Assembly (NCBI RefSeq): GCF_963675165.1
Contig: NC_087378.1
Location: 5,699,205 to 5,763,204 of the forward strand
Origin: Halichondria panicea
Lineage: Eukaryota; Porifera; Demospongiae; Suberitida; Halichondriidae
Direction of reading: 5' to 3'
Length of the DNA: 64,000 nucleotides
Part shown: positions 14,237 through 41,895 of the stretch, piece by piece
Numbering within the stretch: position 1 is the first letter of the stretch
Layout of the letters: each line of letters starts with the position of its first letter
Made by a program: the position numbers and the translations under genes
Notes under the pieces: model-generated
Database searches by the model: none
The model's input: only the letters and a program-made list of their open reading frames with translations
Told to the model about the DNA's origin: nothing

Positions 14237-15110
14237 GACTGAGCAAGGTGGGAGTAGGACAAGAGCCACGATGGAAGAAGAACACCAAGATGTGCAGACG
14301 AATGGAGGGGGAGGTTCGAAGCCATGTTAATGATGCTCCAGGAGCAGCAGAGGATGATGGCGGAGCAGCATCAAGCTCAGCAAAGAGTTCTGCTAGAGAT
14401 GTTACAAACTCAGCAGGAAGAGCAGCGTGCCTATCGCCAGGAGATGGAGGAGCTGCGACCTGTGAGGCACCATGAAGAGACAAGGCATAAATTGCCTAAG
14501 CCTGTTTTCAAGAAATTAGAAGAGACTGATGACTTTTTGGAGACATTTGAGCGGGTTGCCACCCAACATGATTGGCCGGATAATGCGTGGGCTGTCCAGC
14601 TGGCGGGACTGTTGACCGGTAGAGCACAAGCTGCCCAGGATTACAAGAAAGTGAAGGAGGCAATCTTGCATCGGTTTGACGTCAACGAAGAAACACATCG
14701 CAGAAGATTCAGGGAGGACCGGAAGAAGCCAGAAGAATCTTACAGAGAGTGGCTATGGCGCATCACAAACCACAAACCACTTTGACAAGTGGTGCAAAGA
14801 CTCAACAATGCCAATGAAGGAGCTTGTTGTCATGGAGCAGGCTCTCTGGGGAATGGTCTAACTGTCTGGCTGAGAGAGCAGTCATTGGAGGAGCTGGCGA
14901 AACTTGCAGAGGACTACACTCTGGCCATGAAGGGTAAAGACCAGCCCCCCTATCCTCTCCAGGGACACCAGCCGTGGAAACTCAGGAAACAAGAACACCG
15001 GAATGGATTTCGTACAGAGCCAAGAACCAAGGTCAATACTGCCGGAGAAAAGCAATGCTTTCATTGTCACCAGTGGGGTAGTACAATTGCCTCAAGCGAA
15101 GCCTGTCGCA
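14237..15110 (+). pseudogene. gag of the Gmr1-like element
   Basis: The gag region opens with a glutamine-rich coiled-coil stretch (QEQQRMMAEQHQAQQ, about 14340-14440). A capsid-like block follows (TDDFLETFERVATQHDWPDN, AWAVQLAGLLTGRAQAAQDY), then REDRKKPEESYREWLWRIT. The frame switches at 14765-14778, where a 7-bp unit (ACAAACC) is duplicated; ignoring one copy keeps one frame through a DKWCKD block. A cysteine/histidine segment CFHCHQWG near 15057 is a degenerate zinc knuckle. It would have formed the nucleocapsid and capsid of virus-like particles. It is not functional as written. Confidence 0.75.
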
Positions 15111-15480
15111 AGGGAAAGCTCAAGTGGGGGAAAGTTGGAGGAAAGTCTGTTCAGATGCTTTTGGACTCTGGATGCAGTCGAACGATGGTGAGTGCCAACA
15201 GTGTGGATTCTTCCAAGATCAGTAAGGCAGAAACGGTGGCTGTTTTGTGCGTGCACGGAGACACGGTAGAGTATCCTACAGCAATGGTAGAGCTCGCTTT
15301 AGGAGGCCATACCAGGAAAGCAAACGTTGCTGTTGCCCCTAGCCTACCGGTACCAGTGCTCCTTGGAAGAGACCTCTACGATATCAGAAGTGGATGGAAG
15401 TCTTCAGATACTGGATACATGGTGGAGACTAGGTCTCAAAAGAAGATACGAGAATCGAAATCGATGGATGATCTGATCTG
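15111..15480 (+). pseudogene. Aspartic protease domain of the Gmr1-like element
   Basis: VQMLLDSGCSRTMVSANSVD carries the catalytic D-S-G triplet, followed by a second hydrophobic strand set (VALVELALGG-like) and PVPVLLGRDL, the usual LGRD/LGxD near the end of retropepsins. The protease would cut the Gag-Pol polyprotein. It shares a frame with the end of gag, with no stop between them from about 14789 to 15481. Confidence 0.75.
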
Positions 15481-15617
15481 ATGGATCTGAACGAGCAAGC
15501 CGTATTGTCAGAGCTATTTGATCAATCGTTGGAGCTAGAAGTTCCAGAGGCAAACATTGCCTCTGAAGAGCATGAAAATCTTAGGAGGGAGGACATGGCA
15601 GAACGTTAGAAGAGGAG

Positions 15618-16840
15618 ATGAATGCAGAACCAGTGTCCCCCTTAGATGCTTCGAAAGAACAAATTCAAGCATGGCAGGAAAACAACGCAACGCTAGTAAA
15701 AGTTCGTGATTATGCAAGTTCCCAACCCGAAGATGGAACCGAAGGAGAGAATGTTTTCTTCTATAGGCTGCTGTATCGTCACTGGCAACCGAGAAAACGA
15801 GGAGAAGACGGAGTGCAGGCAGTCGAGCAGTTGGTGCTACCGACTCAGTGCCGACAACTGGTATTACGACTGGCGCATGATGTGCCTACAGCTGGCCATC
15901 TAAGAGTCACTAAAACCCGAAACCGAGTACTCCAGAGATACTATTGGCCTGGTGTTTTCAAGGAGGTAACGGAGTATTGTACTACCTGTGAAGTTTGTCA
16001 AAGAAGTCGTGGAAGGAGGCCAGCTCGTGCTCCTCTGGTCTCAATGCCATTGATTCAGAAGCCTTTTTCAAGGATAGCAATGGATATTGTTGGGCCACTG
16101 CCAAGGACGCAACGAGGGAATCGGTATATCCTTACTATCTGTGACTATGCCACTCGATACCCAAAGGCAATTCCATTGCCAAGTGTGGAAGCTGGAAGCT
16201 ACACGTGTTGCACGGGAGCTACTTTTGCTCTTTACTCGAGTTGGAGTTCCTGAGGATGACCAAGGAACTAACTTTATGTCTTCATTGCTAGCCGAACAAC
16301 TCCATACCACCCTCAAACCGACGGGTTGGTGGAGAAGTCAATGCTTCGGAAGTTTACAAGCCGGAACCAGAAAGATTGGGACGAGTACCTTCCATATTTG
16401 CTCTTTTCTTATAGAGAAGTCCCACAGGAGAGTACTGGATTCTCACCATTTGAGCTGTTGTACGGGCATAGAGTGCGAGGGCCACTCGACGTAATACGAG
16501 AGGGATGGACAGAAGAGAGGTCACCAGAGTTCCCAGTAATTGCTCATGTGGTCCAGATGCGAGATCGCTTGGAAGAAATGATGGAGATTGTGCAGGAGAC
16601 TACAAGCAAAGCCCAGCAAAAGCAGAAGAGGTACTATGACAAGGGTACCAAGAAACGAGAGCTGAAAGCCGGTGATCAAGTCTTGGTTTTGCTACCCAAA
16701 GAAGAAAATAAGCTCAAGTTGGAATGGGTTGGTCCCTATAGAGCTGTTACTCCAGTGGACTATGAAGTAGCCACATCAGGGCGGAGGCAGAAGAAGAAGA
16801 TATACTACATCAACCTCTTGAAGCTGTGGAAGTGTCCAAC
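15618..16840 (+). pseudogene. Integrase of the Gmr1-like element (upstream of RT)
   Basis: Order of features: HHCC zinc finger (HDVPTAGH ... CTTCEVC, about 15.87-16.0 kb), catalytic core with first aspartate in RIAMDIVGPLP (about 16.08 kb), second aspartate near DDQGTNF (16.25 kb), and glutamate in the GLVEKSM-type block near 16.33 kb, read in different frames. YLPYLLFSYREVPQESTGFS and FELLYG follow, then a GPY/F-type module (EWVGPYRAVTP ... YYINLLKLW). One uninterrupted frame (16326-17257) runs from the integrase C-terminal part through the GPY/F module into the RT N-terminus, which proves the unusual domain order. Confidence 0.85.
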
Positions 16841-16939
16841 GCAACCAGTCCCAAATCTGATGTCGATAATGGAGGAAGGGAACGAGTGTGACGAGGAAGA
16901 GTTGACCAACCTGAGTTTGTGGGAACCTGAAGAGACACT

Positions 16940-17790
16940 GTTCAATGTGACTGAGATCCAGACCCCTGACTTAAATCCAGAGGAGCGAAAGCAACTGTTG
17001 TCACTGGTGCAAGAGTTTGACTCAGTGTGTGGTCCAGCCCCGGGAAGGACAACGATTGCAGAGCATGAGATATTTGTGGCGGACGAGACTCCAATACAAC
17101 AGAGACCCTACCGTGTACCTTACTCAAGGAGGGAGGTAGTGAAAGAAGAGATCCACAAGATACTTGAAGCCGATGTCATTCGACCTTCTACCAGTCCATG
17201 GGCTTCACCTATTGTAATGGTTGGCAAGAAAGACGGATCTGTGCGGTTTTGTGTGGATTATAGTGTGTGGATTATAGAAAGCTTAACAAAGTGGCTCGCT
17301 TTGACGCTTATCCTATGCCACGCATTGAGGAGCTACTTGACAACATTGGACCTGCTAGATACATCACCACCATGGACTTAGCGAAAGGTTATTGGCAAAT
17401 ACACCTTGAGGAATCTTCTAAAGAGAAGTCGGCTTTTACAACACCGTACGAGTTTCAAGTGATGCCTTTCGGGTTGCACAATGCTCCAGCCACTTTCCAG
17501 AGGACAATGAATCGAGTGCTGGAAGGATGTGAAGAATTTGCACGTTGCTATACTGATGATCTGGTTGTGTACAGCAAATCTTGGGAAGAGCACCTACAAC
17601 ACTTGTTAGGACGTCTGCAAGCTGCCAAGTTGACCCTGAAACCGAGAAAATGTCAGTTTGGACGACGGGAAGTTCGTTATTTGGGACATGTGATTGGTGG
17701 TGGCAAAGTTAGGCCCGATCCACAGAAGCTGCAAGCAGTAGCAGAGTATCACAGACCAAGAAAGATGTACGAGCTTTCCTCGGACTAGTA
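16940..17790 (+). pseudogene. Reverse transcriptase of the Gmr1-like element
   Basis: Recognisable RT blocks in order: EADVIRPSTSPWASPIVMV, KKDGSVRFCVDY, then after a 14-bp tandem duplication (17250-17277) that shifts the frame, RKLNKVARFDAYPMPRIEEL, TTMDLAKGYWQIHL, FQVMPFGLHNAPATFQRTMN, and the active site CYTDDLVVYS (YxDD box). LKPRKCQFGRREVRYLGHVI ends the palm/thumb region. The catalytic aspartates are present, but the frame is broken. Confidence 0.88.
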
Positions 17791-18659: not shown

Positions 18660-18828
18660 CACAAACTGCCAAAAGATGAGACATCTTGACAATATGCACT
18701 GCCAGAAGATGGGACATCTTTGCAGTACATTAAAAACACACACACAAACGTTAACAGATTGCCAAAAGATGAGACATTTTGACAATATGTACTGCCAAAA
18801 GATGGGACATCTTTGCAGTACATTAAAC

Positions 18829-18891
<63 letters not shown>

Positions 18892-19285
18892 AATTAACAG
18901 ATTGCCAAAAGAGGAGACATCTTGACAATATATGCACTGCCAGAAGATGGGACATCTTTGCGGTACATTAAACACACACATTAAACACACACACACACAC
19001 ACACAAACGTTAACAGATTGCCAAAAGATGAGACATTTTGACAATATGCACTGCCAAAAGATGGGACATCTTTGCAGTACATTAAAAACACACACACACA
19101 CACACAAACGTTAACAGATTGCCAAAAGATGAGACAACTTGACAATATGTACTGCCAAAAGATGGGACATCTTTGCGGTACATTAAACACACACACACAC
19201 AAACGTTAACAGATTGCCAAAAGATGAGACATCTAAAAGATAGGACATACACACACAAAAAGAAAACGATTGCCAAAAGATCTGT
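18660..19285. repeat. Six-unit minisatellite with embedded CA arrays
   Basis: Units of roughly 95-135 bp begin AACAGATTGCCAAAAGATGA and contain GACAATATGCACTGCC, AAGATGGGACATCTTTGC and GTACATTAAA. Each is followed by a CA-rich tract of varying length (longest at about 18829-18892, with CG steps). The sixth unit is truncated. Open frames through this block are artefacts of the repeat. Confidence 0.9.
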
Positions 19286-34428: not shown

Positions 34429-34465
34429 TTAATTCTGGTTGTGGCAAATTGAACAACACTCAGGG

Positions 34466-34665
34466 GGATCAGTGTATTAAAGCGGCCATTCTAGAATGTC
34501 TGTGTTTTTTGCCAAAAAGTCAGGAAATTAGGGAGTGCTTGCATTTACCAATTTCTGGATTCTTAAATCTTTAAATTTCCATTAATGCGAGTTTCCAGAA
34601 CCCAACGTTTCCTGGTATTTTGAAAACACGAGGGGGAGATATTTTAATATTACAACCCCTGGCAG
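34466..34665 (+). repeat. Left terminal inverted repeat of the two-gene transposon
   Basis: About 200 bp, matching the complement of 38076-38277. It includes CTAGAATGTCTGTGTTTTTT, AAATTAGGGAGTGCTTGC and AACACGAGGGGGAGA. Confidence 0.92.
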
Positions 34666-34734
34666 TTAACTTGTAGTACTCAGTTAATGTTAAACACTCT
34701 ATAATGATTATGAGCAAGTAAAATGGCTCTTAGA

Positions 34735-36208
34735 CTATAGATAAGCTTCTAGAGAGTTCGTTATTCTAATGAACTCAGCAATTGCATATGAATATGCTTG
34801 TCCATTTCCTGATACCACATTACTAAAGATGTCCCCAAAACGACAGCGAGAGAGGAAATATTGCTCCCTTTTCATAATTAGATCCTGTCGATCCTTGAGT
34901 GGATCGCAACCAAAAAGTCCAAACTCTCTTAGCTGACCACCTTGAGAACGGTATGCATCTGCAGCTTCATCAGTACCCGGTACTTCCCCATCTGGAATGG
35001 GTATAGTTTCATAACGCTGCACCTGCAAATGATTGGGTACTCCTCGACCTGTATCACATATTATAATAGCGCATGTGTCATCAATAATAATGTCATTACA
35101 TTTACCTGGTATAGAATGATGATTCCAAGCTGCAACAAACAATGATAATCCATGATAAGCAACATTGCACGTAACAAACGAAACACAAAATTTTGTAGTT
35201 TCATCACTCATGTTAATCAGATTAGTAGCTTCCATTGATATCAAGTGTCGCTTTAGGGGGTAGTTAATACGAGAATTTACTTCAACCCAAATGCGTTCAA
35301 CAGTGTGGTTCTGTAGAGAGAAAAGTTAATGCATGTAAGCAATATCAGTACCCTTACTTCTGTTGAAGGAGATTGAACGTAAGGAAGAATATCCCGAGGG
35401 CCAACACGACAACGAAGTGCTTCTTGTACATACAAAAGAAGATAAAATTCTCTTCCATGGTCGACTCGAATTTGCTTCCAAAGACCATACGTTTTAGTAG
35501 ATGACCTGATATGGAAATTATACGTGTTACTGATGTAACTATTATTCAATGAGTTGAACAATACCTCAAAATACTGTCGTATATAGCCAAATTGTTCTTG
35601 ACTGGCATTGTACAGTAAGCAATTATCTTGCCTGAATATCCATCCCTTGCAACTATGTGGGTAGCACCAAACATTGTGATCTTTTCATTTTGGTCAATAT
35701 GAAGTTTATGCCCAAAGTGGAGAGCCGAGTATTGCAGTGGATTAGTACGGTCTAAGGTGTCATTCCGCCGCTGATCATATTGCAAAGGGGCCACTCTCTG
35801 TAAGGACTCTGAAACTCTTTTCTCAGATACCTTAATACCTTTAGACTCAAGCACACCCTTTAACATTCTCCGGCCATACACATGTCCAACCTGCAAGTCA
35901 TAATTAATTTAGAAATGTTTTTTGTGGTACTTAGCTAATTACGCACATGGACTGTATTCTCCGGTGCTACGGTAATATTCTTAGTATTAAGCCCTATACT
36001 ACGTTTAGCTTACTTCAGTAACAGCACATTCGACTACAGCATCTACTTGAGCAGAATCTGGTTTATGAATGCCATTTTCAGAGCAGAATCGCCGAACACT
36101 TCTTGCAGAGAAGCCTCTTATTCCTGGAAAGCGGGTCTTGAGTGTATTACTTATATCTTCGTGGGTCATACCACTTGTAACCATTTCAAACACTTCATCC
36201 ACATCCAT
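34735..36208 (-). CDS. Integrase-like (DDE) transposase, intact, five exons
   Basis: Exons 36208-36014, 35890-35565, 35505-35358, 35310-35106 and 35048-34735; all introns are GT-AG, phases agree, 395 aa. The first ATG at 36208 gives a homeodomain-like helix-turn-helix (MTHEDISNTLKTRFPGIRGF ... SVRRFCSENGI, residues about 12-52), then an IS3-type second helix-turn-helix (GRRMLKGVLESKGIKVSEKR, about 71-95). The integrase core has D131 in HKLHIDQNEK, D189 in IRVDHGREF and E227 in NHTVERIWVEV, a DD37E arrangement. SLFVAAWNHHSIP lies in the C-terminal part, ending with GLFGCDPLKD and FIRITNSLEAYL. It would cut and join the element's ends in the nucleus. The fourth intron (57 bp, 35049-35105) rests on the joint SIPGRGVPN; if retained the frame stays open, giving 414 aa. 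Confidence 0.88.
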
Positions 36209-36409
36209 CCTTCTTAGCCTCGATACACGCCTGGATTCGAATTAGCCGCACCCTAGCCTAATAAATATTTTGCGATTGCTTTTTAAATAGATAAATCTAC
36301 ATGTAGATCAACATACGGTCAAAAGCACATGGCCTGGGCACAAAATTGCAAGTGTCCTCTCTATTTAGCTCTATGCTGCGCTGATACCGTGAAAGAAGGG
36401 CCTAGGAAC
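36209..36409. promoter_or_regulatory. Shared divergent promoter region of the two-gene transposon
   Basis: The two genes start head to head, about 200 bp apart. The spacer is AT-rich (AATAAATATTTTGCG, TTTTTAAATAG) with no long frame. A common bidirectional promoter is inferred from position only. Confidence 0.4.
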
Positions 36410-37624
36410 ATGAGTTCGAGTGTAAGCAACTTGTACAACTACAGCCTGTATACCATAGAGAAAGATGGCAAAACCGTGAAGCTCAAACCATCACAGCTAA
36501 CTACTCAAGTTATTGGTAAAGTGTTTGGACTGTTCCCCGATTCCATTATTTTGATTTCTGACGATGGGTTTGTGGAAACACCAGACCATGAGGGAAAGTT
36601 TCTTGATGTAGATGACCTATCAAAGTGGGTTGTGAACGGGGATTCGCTCAAGGCAGATGGTTTGCCTCAAGACCAGCAAGTAGCCTCTTTCTCTTACCAG
36701 CCTCCTTCACAAGCAACATCACAAGCAACATCACGAAAAAGAGGACGACCGCCAAAATGGAGTCCAAAGTTCACGTCAGCCTTGCTAGGTGCAAGCTCTG
36801 CCTCAGGACAGAAGCCACCTGGAGTTCGAGCTCGAGCTGAACCGAGTGTTGATGGTGCAGGCCCTTCCACAATGTCTTCAAGTTCTAGCAGCCGTCCCGA
36901 ATGGAGAAAGTATATTGAGGTGTGCAAATGGAATGAAGCTGATAAACAATGGAAGAAAGTGAGCAATGTCCCCATCGACCTTTCTGAGGAAATTGCCAGC
37001 GTTCCAAATGTGTCGAAGATGGTTAGTGACGAGCTATTCAATGGTGAAGAATGCGTACTTATGGACATAGACTACCTGAAGATACCGAATACTTCTACTA
37101 CTCGAGGTAAGAAGCTCGATGTATTCATTGTGCTGACTCTTTAATAACTTGTTAATTCAGCAGTTACTGATTATGCCATTACTAGTGCTTACTTTCTCTA
37201 TCCAGGATCAAGGTTTTGGAAAACCTCCAAACGTATTCGAGCCGTTAGAAAATCTGAAGTAAAGAAAGGAAGGGTTATTTCCTTGGACTCGAGCTCTGAT
37301 AGTGATTTTGATTTTGCCCCACAGCACAGAGCAAAAAAAATGTCTCTACCATTGGCACCATCTTCCCTAGGCACTATGGATAAAACTGTATTCGAATGCC
37401 TCGTATGCAAGTCTCAGACATCATTCCCAGCTGTGGTGTCTCCCTGTTGTAATGTTATTTTGGGGTGTGAGGTGTGTGTGGCACAATGGCTGGAGGCCCA
37501 GTCAACCTGCCCACATTGTCGTGCCTCTTTGACTCTCAAGGACTGCCCAAAGTTACCCCTTGTAAGAAGCTTCCAAGAATTTCTTCGAAAGCATACGCCT
37601 TCTCCATTGTCAAGCTCTGACTAA
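36410..37624 (+). CDS. AT-hook and RING-like protein of the two-gene transposon, two exons
   Basis: Exons 36410-37106 (donor GTAAGA) and 37206-37624 (acceptor TATCCAG); joined in phase it gives 371 aa. An in-frame upstream ATG at 36329 would add 27 residues; the ATG at 36410 is preferred because the conserved-looking domain starts there. N-terminal domain (about 5-85): SLYTIEKDGKTVKLKPSQLT ... LDVDDLSKWV, compact and possibly beta-grasp or CIDE-N-like, not recognised. An AT-hook (RKRGRPPK, about 109-116) suggests DNA binding. A Ser/Pro linker, a second ordered segment (EWRKYIEVCKWNEADKQWKK), an acidic serine patch (LDSSSDSDFDF) and a C-terminal RING/U-box-like zinc domain follow (CLVC ... SPCC ... 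CEVC ... CPHC, 297-337). A role in transposition, or as an E3 ligase acting on the transposase or host, is inference. Confidence 0.85.
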
Positions 37625-38075
37625 TGAACATTTATTGGTGAACTTGTATCCCTGTTGTGTTTTCATCAAGAGTATATGTATACTCTTGTTTCATGCATTT
37701 ATTCTTATTCTTATTCTTATTCTTGTTATTATTATTATTATGTGAACTTCACAGCCTTTCAACTGAAACGGGCTAACAATTTTGAGCACTGCGGGGGATG
37801 TGTAGATATGTAAGCAAGATTGAACCTTGCATAATTATAAGATAGCCAAACTCTTATAGACATTGTGACAAAGTCCCAGACCTGGCTGGAAACCGTTGCA
37901 TGGTCTTTTCTCTCCCTATAACTGATTACCAATTTTTTTTGCTGTTCTACCACAAACCCACCACCCTATGTTGCTATGGAAATATACACAATGGTATCAG
38001 CACATTATCTTAGAAATGTTCCAAACAGGAGATATGACTGGTATACAATTATTCACCTATTGCACAAACTTATAA
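37625..38075. other. 3' region of the two-gene transposon, no gene
   Basis: It contains a (TTATTC)n/(TTA)n simple repeat at about 37695-37741 directly after the RING gene. No further frame with signals. Confidence 0.5.
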
Positions 38076-38277
38076 CTGCCACAGGGGTTGTAATGTTAAA
38101 ATTTCTCCCCCTCGTGTTTTCAAAATACCAGGAAACGTTGAGTTCTGGAAACTCGCATTAATGGAAATTTAAAGATTTAAGAATCCAGAAATTGGTAAAT
38201 GCAAGCACTCCCTAATTTCCTGACTTTTTGGCAAAAAACACAGACATTCTAGAATGGCCGCTTTAATACACTGATCC
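38076..38277 (-). repeat. Right terminal inverted repeat of the two-gene transposon
   Basis: Inverse of 34466-34665. Differences seen are C/T at the AGAACYCAACG position, T/A in GAGAWATTTT, T/C in TTTTAAYATT, and 2 extra bases in CCCCTGTGGCAG. Confidence 0.92.
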
Positions 38278-38303
38278 AGGGGACTGGGTCTGGGTCAAGC
38301 TTA

Positions 38304-40049: not shown

Positions 40050-41895
40050 GAGCGAGATTAGCAGTGGAGACTCTTCTATGCGACTTAACAAATGATTACT
40101 GCAATCACAGCCACTATCATCAACAAATTTGCGTATTATTTCTTTTTGACATGTTGCCAATGACTGAGGCACAACTTTTCTTAGCCGTATTATAGATCCA
40201 TTAACATACTGTCTACTGTACTTTTTTGCATGACACTAACATTGTTCAATAGCATTTAACTCACAATGAAATTTAGGGAAAAACGAACATATGTGGGACC
40301 CCCTTCCACAAGTGTTTGGACACTTTGAAAGTCTTCATGACTTCCTCTCATTTTTAAGGCAAAAGTGTCCACCCCCCTCTCCTGTAAAACTAATTTCATA
40401 CCCTTTGGAATACCACTATCACTAATCTTTGAACCTTCCCCGTATCCTTCATTACAGGTTGCTTTCCACCAGGACCAACGTTCATTTTTTTTACATTTAG
40501 AGATTCATCACTACATTTACGATGAGATGAAGCATTATCAAGTACTTGTTTACCAGGGTATTTACTGTTAAAATATATCAATGGCCTGTATTAAAAATCT
40601 AGTACTTTCAAAATAACCCTCACTCTGTGCCTCTAATAACAAATGTGCTTCGGCACCATTATGCTGTAAAAAATCAGCACTTGCCCCTCTTCTATACACC
40701 ATTATGGATTGCCCCAAACTTTTTTGCTTTAATATAGTGATAGAATCATCACCCCAATAATCACCCCAATAATAATCCTGGTCTGCATTAGCAAAAAAAG
40801 TGGATTCATCATGGTGGATGGCAACAAGGGGCAACTCTCCGGGAAGTAAAATGGGAGGTACATACATCTACTATCTAACTCTGTTAATTTAGCAAGGAAA
40901 GTTTTCGCTACTACTCAAAATAGCCAAAATAGACCCCCTTTTGAGCCCAATATATTTAACCATTTCCGAGCTGTTTCTCGAGTTATAATTCATTTTCTAT
41001 CCATACACGAAACATTTCTACTGTTAAATTTCCTTGCACTAACACAAAATTCCACGTTCTTAATCAAGCTGTATGGCTTTTTGATGCTTTTACCCCGACT
41101 AGATGCCAGAATGGTCAATTACAGATGGATCTACATTAACTAGTGAAAGGTAATAATGAGCTGCCCACCTGCGTACCGTTTCAGCATTAACACCACTGAC
41201 GTCAGCTGCCCTTTTGGACGCATCTACTATACCATCCCCCCACACTTTTACTGCTATACTAAAAACCTTAAGGGCTTTGTTAAGCTCAGGGCTTATGTTG
41301 CGCTCAACGTAGTCCTCAATACTAAGGCTGCCCTGCAACCTCTGGGCACTGCTTGAGCAGCTTCTGAAGGGTAGTAACAGGTTGTATAACAGGCAGGATG
41401 CCTATGTCCACGTGTATCGGGTATTACCTTTATTACCTTGGCCCACCTTGTTTTATGACCAGAAATGTTGTCTCCTCTTGGTTGCTTCTCCTCTTGGTCA
41501 CTTGACATCAGCGGTCTTTCTAAGAATGTCTTGGGCCTGTCTCTTTGCTCTCCCTTGGTAAGTTGCTGGTGAGAAATTTGCAGGTGAAATAGTTGCTGGT
41601 GAGTTAGTTGCTGGTGAGGTGGATGTAGTTGCTGGTGAGGTGGATGTAGTTGCTGGTGAATTAGTTGCTGGTAAGGCGGATGTAGTTGCTGGTGAGTTAG
41701 TTGCTGGTGAGGTGGATGTAGTTGCTGGTGAATTAGTTGCTGGTGAGGTTGCTGGTGAGGTAGTTGCTGGTGCTGGTGCATGTGGTTGGTTCCCTGGAAA
41801 ATCCATCCTTTGAAATCTTAGAAGAACTTTGAAATCTGCAGCTGCAAGACAAGCGCGGGCTATTATACCGGTCGATACAATAGGGCGTGGCAATT
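40050..41895 (-). pseudogene. IS630/Tc1-type DDE transposase, broken
   Basis: The minus strand reads, in order: MDFPGNQPHAPAPATTSPAT followed by many NSPATT-type repeats (41800-41570), a helix-turn-helix-like block (SKRAADVSGVNAETVRRWAA, about 41.2 kb), ELPLVAIHHDESTFFANADQ with the first catalytic aspartate (about 40.8 kb), KSLGQSIMV, KYPGKQVLDNASSHRKCSDE with the second aspartate (about 40.53 kb), NVKKMNVGPGGKQPVMKDTG, and, with frame changes, RGVDTFALK, a CELN-like block with LNAIEQC carrying the glutamate (about 40.27 kb) and CHAKKYSRQYVNG. This series matches a transposase family in fungi and aquatic animals that shares the IS630/Tc1 DDE fold. Stops after HSGI (41.1 kb) and in the C-terminal third kill it. 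Confidence 0.75.
41565..41780. repeat. Coding minisatellite (AGTTGCTGGTGA units)
   Basis: About a dozen 12-18-bp units of the form GTAGTTGCTGGTGAGGTGGA encode (NSPATTSTSPAT)n on the minus strand in the transposase N-terminal region. The repeat is open in several frames, so the glutamine/histidine-rich alternative frame is not a separate gene. Confidence 0.85.

Follow-up and report, generated by a model that had tools for sequence, protein, structure and literature searches.

A 64,000-nucleotide stretch of the sponge Halichondria panicea genome (contig NC_087378.1, positions 5,699,205 to 5,763,204; hereafter the window) contains two divergent genes between long inverted repeats, one encoding an integrase-like DDE transposase and the other a protein with a RING-like finger. 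This raises the question whether the two genes form a single mobile element, and if so, what a RING protein might contribute to it. The original prediction, made from the letters of the window, described a complete and recently mobile two-gene DNA transposon, and copies elsewhere in the genome, target-site duplications, empty sites and a match of the transposase to the Pfam family rva_4 (PF24764) bear this out. The element is almost certainly an autonomous, complete and recently mobile DNA transposon with an integrase-like DDE transposase. Our explanation of the whole, to which we give a probability of about 0.6, is an IS3EU/GingerRoot-like autonomous transposon whose RING protein would serve as a transposition helper with E3 ubiquitin-ligase activity. 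The element is delimited as follows:

34467..38276, no strand: complete transposon of 3,810 bp, from copies and flanks and from the empty sites of two sister copies
34461..34466, no strand: left target-site duplication CAGGGG, from flank comparison
38277..38282, no strand: right target-site duplication CAGGGG, from flank comparison
34467..34661, plus strand: left terminal inverted repeat, from arm comparison, counted from 34466
38082..38276, minus strand: right terminal inverted repeat, from arm comparison

Boundaries, copies and empty target sites

The element (34467-38276) reads GATCAGTG...CACTGATC, with limits set by copies, flanks and sister-copy empty sites. Across 196 bp its inverted arms, at 34466-34661 and 38082-38277, show 98% complementarity, in agreement with the predicted ends of about 200 bp and about 98% identity, and the interior is occupied by two divergent genes, both open after intron removal; retranslation of the exons supports the earlier description of spliced, stop-free genes that fill the element. 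The AGGG noted on both sides is present, but as the inner part of CAGGGG, and its interpretation as a 4-bp duplication is ruled out by seven copies and two empty sites that give 6 bp. The terminus is GATCAG, starting at G34467, and not GGATCAG as proposed, whereas the remark that it lacks the TGT start of Ginger1 holds (TGTNR is not found here). An empty site that placed the ends elsewhere had been named as evidence against the prediction, and this is in part what was observed: each end shifts by one base, and the duplication is 6 bp instead of 4. Two further outcomes named in the same way, a lack of other copies with the same boundaries and a single-copy RING gene without terminal repeats, did not occur.

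The genome searched comprises 131 Mb in 39 contigs. A search for further copies with the left 200 bp as query, as originally suggested, gave 15 matches. Fourteen of them are the paired ends of seven full-length copies, and the last belongs to an eighth, broken copy (L015, on C6), which lacks the left 240 bases and has an insertion inside; short internal-deletion derivatives are absent among these 15 end matches. The flanks differ among the seven full-length copies, all of which have GATC at both ends. Six of them are bounded by flush, exact 6-bp duplications, each different (CAGGGG, GCAGAG, CAACAT, AGGAAT, AATATT and TGTGCA), and the seventh (L009) has the duplication TAGCTG with five extra bases, TGATC, at the right end. 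The window copy, L009, L010 and L013 are letter-identical over 3,810 bp. The other three depart from this sequence, L011 by one base, L012 (on C15) by one base and a 5-bp deletion in the second gene, and L014 by two bases and three small insertions or deletions. Such near-identity of the copies is consistent with a burst of very short duration.

Empty sites were sought for four of the seven insertions (the window copy, L009, L012 and L014). When the flanks of L009 are joined with a single TAGCTG and the extra TGATC is omitted, the resulting sequence is matched in full (139 of 139 bases) at six places in the genome and to 99% at one more; the target of L009 is a repeat with uninterrupted copies elsewhere. 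For L014, joined with a single TGTGCA, a nearby repeat unit matches over 140 bases with a 12-bp gap that lies away from the junction. These two empty sites confirm the element boundaries and the 6-bp duplication: the transposon inserts precisely, and it has moved very recently. Because the extra TGATC of L009 is not present in the empty target sites, it derives either from the element or from the joining. Extra terminal five bases (TGATC or GATCA) are seen at insertion ends in two families, at the right end of L009, at the left ends of L081 and L091, and in L096.

The second of these families is represented by L076, which is flanked by the duplication CTTCAA and has 106-bp inverted ends (91%) that likewise begin with GATCAGTG; the exon frames of both its genes are open. 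Its ends are shared by non-autonomous elements, from which seven end pairs were hand-picked from match lists, and four single ends (L093-L096) were read besides. Exact 6-bp duplications flank three of the seven pairs. Another two carry GTAATA with an additional GATCA, and the last two lack a duplication; judging from their identical flanks, the two GTAATA pairs are probably one duplicated insertion. GATC is found at both ends of the L076 element and of all seven non-autonomous pairs.

The transposase and its RING-bearing partner

The two genes are arranged as follows:

36014..36208, minus strand: transposase exon 1, in agreement with NCBI model P0017
35565..35890, minus strand: transposase exon 2, with the presumed first catalytic Asp, D131, from alignment
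35358..35505, minus strand: transposase exon 3, with the presumed second catalytic Asp, D189, from alignment
35106..35310, minus strand: transposase exon 4, with the presumed catalytic Glu, E228, from alignment
34735..35048, minus strand: transposase exon 5 and stop, from retranslation of all five exons; P0017 skips 19 residues here
36209..36409, no strand: gap between the two starts, presumed two-way promoter, 201 bp (120 bp with the NCBI start)
36410..37106, plus strand: RING-protein gene exon 1, encoding the conserved N-terminal region, which has no Pfam name, from alignment and profile
37206..37624, plus strand: RING-protein gene exon 2 and stop, from finger alignment and profile scan
37394..37522, plus strand: RING-like finger (zf-RING_2), 27.4 bits against a cut-off of 27.3

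The transposase, of 395 amino acids, is encoded by five minus-strand exons, and P0017 agrees with it in sequence and exons apart from one 19-residue stretch that the model lacks. P0017 matches rva_4 at 5.8e-16 (59.2 bits against a cut-off of 26), and the profile search thereby assigns an integrase-like DDE family, as anticipated. It also has a weak match (0.0098) to HTH_21, a domain that occurs in IS3-type proteins; the Pfam search of P0017 gave no match to Integrase_H2C2, and the transposase profile had none among solved structures at 0.01. D131 and D189 are invariant and E228 is nearly so across 35 aligned proteins (32 chosen from 120 listed of 230 matches, and three from the Halichondria genome), and their motifs suggest that these are the catalytic residues. 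Among the matches listed, those with names include cnidarian, hemichordate and teleost proteins. In a tree of 41 proteins, which covers only rva_4 proteins from the Halichondria genome and search matches, long branches (support 100/100) divide the transposase subgroup from six other rva_4 transposases encoded by that genome, and the three RING-bearing families tested form one clade with two Amphimedon proteins and one further protein (support 97/95).

The second gene encodes 371 amino acids from the chosen start, in two exons on the plus strand. NCBI model P0001 tracks this gene from a start 27 codons upstream, at 36329. Its early end is explained by the C15 copy (L012), to which the model refers and which has the 5-bp deletion; P0001 is thus a published gene model built on a broken transposon copy. 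A profile of exon 1 detected 37 proteins at E <= 0.01 (8,000 best candidates scored), and the N-terminal region and the RING are united in one protein, P0152. The zf-RING_2 profile scores above its cut-off in all four family sequences scanned, that is, window exon 2 (27.4), L076 (30.9), L078 (28.6) and P0152 (27.6). Eight cysteines are conserved in the finger, and the histidine site reads CCN in the window protein and P0016, CCG in P0152, CCH in L076 and CCR in L078. Canonical RING fingers bind metal through C3HC4 or C3H2C3 ligands, with a histidine usual at that site.

The AT-hook that was part of the predicted definition of the lineage did not hold up. The window protein has a single sub-threshold motif (13.6 bits against a cut-off of 17.4), and a Pfam match, also below the cut-off, is found in one of 15 family members. 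RGRP occurs in two of the 15, in P0002 at the exon end and off the aligned place, and a basic RG[RK] stretch occupies the aligned place in many of the remaining members; with the RGRP core not conserved among the 15 members, the AT-hook was rejected as a defining part. The idea that the two halves of the N-terminal region arose as a tandem repeat has no support (hhalign probability 0.5%). Hits to solved structures were taken as chance; these were MAK16 alone for the region as a whole (E 0.005), and MAK16 (0.39) and a phage spike (0.69) for its first part. A ubiquitin-like fold of the CIDE-N type is our own, unconfirmed assumption for this region. Host RING genes on C6 were rejected as relatives; the two of five loci that were read, L071 and L075, appear TRAF-like by eye and share the finger alone.

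The gene pair was searched for in the whole genome with the second protein of the window, with the first exon of L076 and with the transposase. The N-terminal region is present at 12 substantial loci, namely eight copies of the window family, L076 (C10), L077 (C9), L078 (C16) and C6:6899410, and two further 24-residue pieces on C9 (3034198 and 3092957) were excluded from the count. At all 12 loci, which represent five families, a transposase of the same subgroup is positioned head-to-head with the N-terminal region; on C16 this transposase is represented by its first exon only. Beyond the two 24-residue pieces, these searches did not find the region elsewhere in the genome, as a host copy or otherwise. 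The transposases of the five families are 36-46% identical to that of the window. The proposal that the RING partner marks a lineage is upheld by this head-to-head arrangement in five families, of which the three placed in the tree group within a single supported clade, and the second gene is very probably a selected part of the transposon. These genome searches revealed no N-terminal region near the many transposase matches at 20-30% identity; the six of these that were read (L097-L102) fall in another rva_4 subgroup. L097-L102 contain open frames of considerable length, the longest one read having 400 codons, and several equal-score genome matches, with no RING partner found nearby, and perhaps these elements are active too.

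Known elements and competing explanations

The nearest known kind is IS3EU/GingerRoot, compared here by published description and not by Repbase proteins, and for this and the other systems the comparison refers to the portions of the cited papers that were covered. Complete IS3EU families are reported always to have TA..TA termini; they usually have 6-bp duplications, lack an HHCC finger, and have the first D of the DDE core 100-300 residues into the protein (PMC10045372). The sponge element is similar in its integrase-like DDE transposase without an HHCC finger, in the position of its first D (D131), and in the 6-bp duplications of all seven copies, but its termini are GATCAG..CTGATC, and a RING partner is not reported in the portions covered. 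GingerRoot also has 6-bp duplications, and a common IS3EU/GingerRoot transposase lineage is possible, but GingerRoot termini are mostly TA..TA and occasionally TG..CA (PMC10045372), as opposed to GA..TC here. IS481EU differs in its duplications of approximately 4, 15 or 25 bp (PMC10045372). As for the fungal TET-bearing IS3EU elements, these combine the transposase with a second gene in opposite orientation and generate 6-bp duplications, but the second gene encodes an alpha-kinase, the elements carry TET/JBP rather than RING, and the termini are TAYGG..CCRTA (PMC12730594).

Ginger1 and Ginger2/TDD likewise have integrase-related DDE transposases, and Ginger1 in addition has ubiquitin/SUMO-pathway domains. 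The TGTNR ends and the CCGG/CCGT 4-bp duplications of Ginger1 are not found in the sponge element, and its OTU and Ulp1 protease domains are fused to the transposase (PMC2836005), in contrast to the separate RING protein observed here. The TGTNR ends, 4-5 bp duplications and H2C2 finger of Ginger2/TDD (PMC2836005) are all absent. A transposon-encoded RING is known for Chapaev and the RAG1/RAG2 ancestor, and the RAG1 RING has ubiquitin-ligase activity (PMC4411706), but in those systems the RING is fused to a Transib/Chapaev-type transposase, whereas here it is a separate protein beside an integrase-type enzyme. Other mobile elements that encode RING are one Phytophthora Mutator-like element (MULE), for which a listing gives a C3HC4 ring finger (PMC6446971), and two in Calliphora, with RING fingers in the gag of an Isis-like and in a Pao retrotransposon (PMC3630058). 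These belong to other element classes, and their RING is not a separate partner of an integrase-type transposase. Such a separate RING protein was not found in the literature searched, mostly at the level of search listings, a coverage that leaves out most subscription papers, Repbase and Dfam. It is possible, but doubtful, that the sponge elements constitute a lineage apart from both IS3EU and GingerRoot, made up of two-component integrase-type transposons that have GATCAG termini of their own and depend for transposition on a separately encoded RING E3 ligase; a RING would then have been recruited to a DDE recombinase independently of Chapaev/RAG1.

A simpler account, whose chances we place only somewhat below even, is that the element is an ordinary IS3EU with drifted terminal bases, and that RING is one of several IS3EU accessory genes. 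The 6-bp duplications and the missing HHCC finger (PMC10045372) agree with this, as does the opposite alpha-kinase gene of the fungal TET-bearing elements (PMC12730594). However, TA..TA is reported for all complete IS3EU in the covered portions of PMC10045372, whereas GATC is present at both ends in each of the seven copies, in L076 and in every non-autonomous pair. The 100/100 split from the six other rva_4 transposases also speaks against simple drift, even if the tree does not say which side Repbase calls IS3EU. The pairing bears on a different proposal as well, in which the RING protein shields the element by marking host silencing factors of the chromatin or small-RNA pathway for degradation. 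IS3EU and other transposons carry genes proposed to counter silencing (PMC12730594), the TET/JBP genes of fungal transposons, thought to counter methylation, provide an analogy, and the four identical copies suggest that silencing has not halted the element. Nevertheless, the RING protein has no known target, and in the genome searches the pairing turned up with a single subgroup of transposases and beside none of the remaining rva_4 transposases. A helper dedicated to this transposase accounts for that more readily than a gene directed against silencing in general, and we consider the shielding role unlikely. If the second gene were instead a captured host gene, carried as a passenger without function for the element, the similarity of its finger to many cellular RINGs, and weakly to sponge proteins with a TRAF-like layout, would be expected. 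Yet the genome searches did not turn up the N-terminal region in a host gene, and the pair persists in five families whose transposases have diverged to 36-46% identity with that of the window. The ratio of nonsynonymous to synonymous differences between families (pN/pS) is well below 1. It spans 0.32-0.56 in four comparisons of the second gene and 0.43-0.58 in three of the transposase, and both genes look constrained. Recurrence and constraint together make the passenger reading highly improbable.

Several observations weigh against a transposon with a RING helper, which we nonetheless prefer. Synonymous sites are saturated in most of these comparisons, and pN/pS is therefore a rough guide. 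Among transposase matches of at least 36% identity, a partner is present at no fewer than 12 of 16 loci (105 of 131 candidates scored), and the genome searches score the best candidates only, which makes such counts lower bounds. Four of these matches lack a RING partner; three (C15:3296206, C14:4034770 and C7:5309101) are broken or short, and the fourth (C3:3803465) spans 63 residues at 43% identity. Two of the four empty-site tests yielded none: the genome gave no empty site for the window copy, whose right flank is itself a repeat that begins a few bases past the junction, and for L012 a single 84% match, which reaches 11 bases beyond the junction, was not counted. The RING score of the window protein lies at the cut-off (27.4 against 27.3) and falls to 27.0 with the longer frame, and together with CCN at the usual histidine site this means that ligase activity is not assured. 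A ubiquitin-ligase role of the RING protein is a tentative assignment, with odds that are rather less than even.

A possible mechanism and its meaning

By analogy with the DDE family, the transposase would bind the inverted ends, cut beside GATC, and join the ends to the target DNA at positions six bases apart. A shared promoter in the 120-201 bp gap may drive both genes. The RING protein would, although this step is weaker, assist transposition as an E3 ubiquitin ligase. Its N-terminal region may select the partner, which could be the transposase, the end complex or a host factor, and the RING may then recruit ubiquitin, either to tune transposase turnover or to loosen host chromatin or repair barriers.

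Elsewhere in the window, 14258-17785 (plus strand) contains retroelement remains in the order aspartic protease, Integrase_H2C2 and reverse transcriptase; an integrase finger ahead of the reverse transcriptase is an order that we take to be that of Gmr1-like elements. A tandem array with units of 93-101 bp is located at 18667-19234, and a tandem repeat at 41561-41772 lies within a 174-codon open frame on the minus strand that has no Pfam match at 0.001.

A 2015 paper stated, in the portion covered, that RING and Chapa domains are not encoded in known transposable elements outside the Transib/Chapaev/RAG1 line (PMC4411706). The RING fingers of the Phytophthora MULE (PMC6446971) and the two fly retrotransposons (PMC3630058) indicate that this is not the whole picture, and what is distinctive here is that a separate RING protein has been retained beside an integrase-type transposase across five families. 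Because the pair recurs in several older relatives, the RING partner probably matters for movement of the element. What the ubiquitin pathway contributes to DNA transposition is a question already raised for the OTU and Ulp1 domains of Ginger1 (PMC2836005), and the sponge element, which offers four copies without a difference, precisely defined ends and sites known in their empty state, makes it directly testable.

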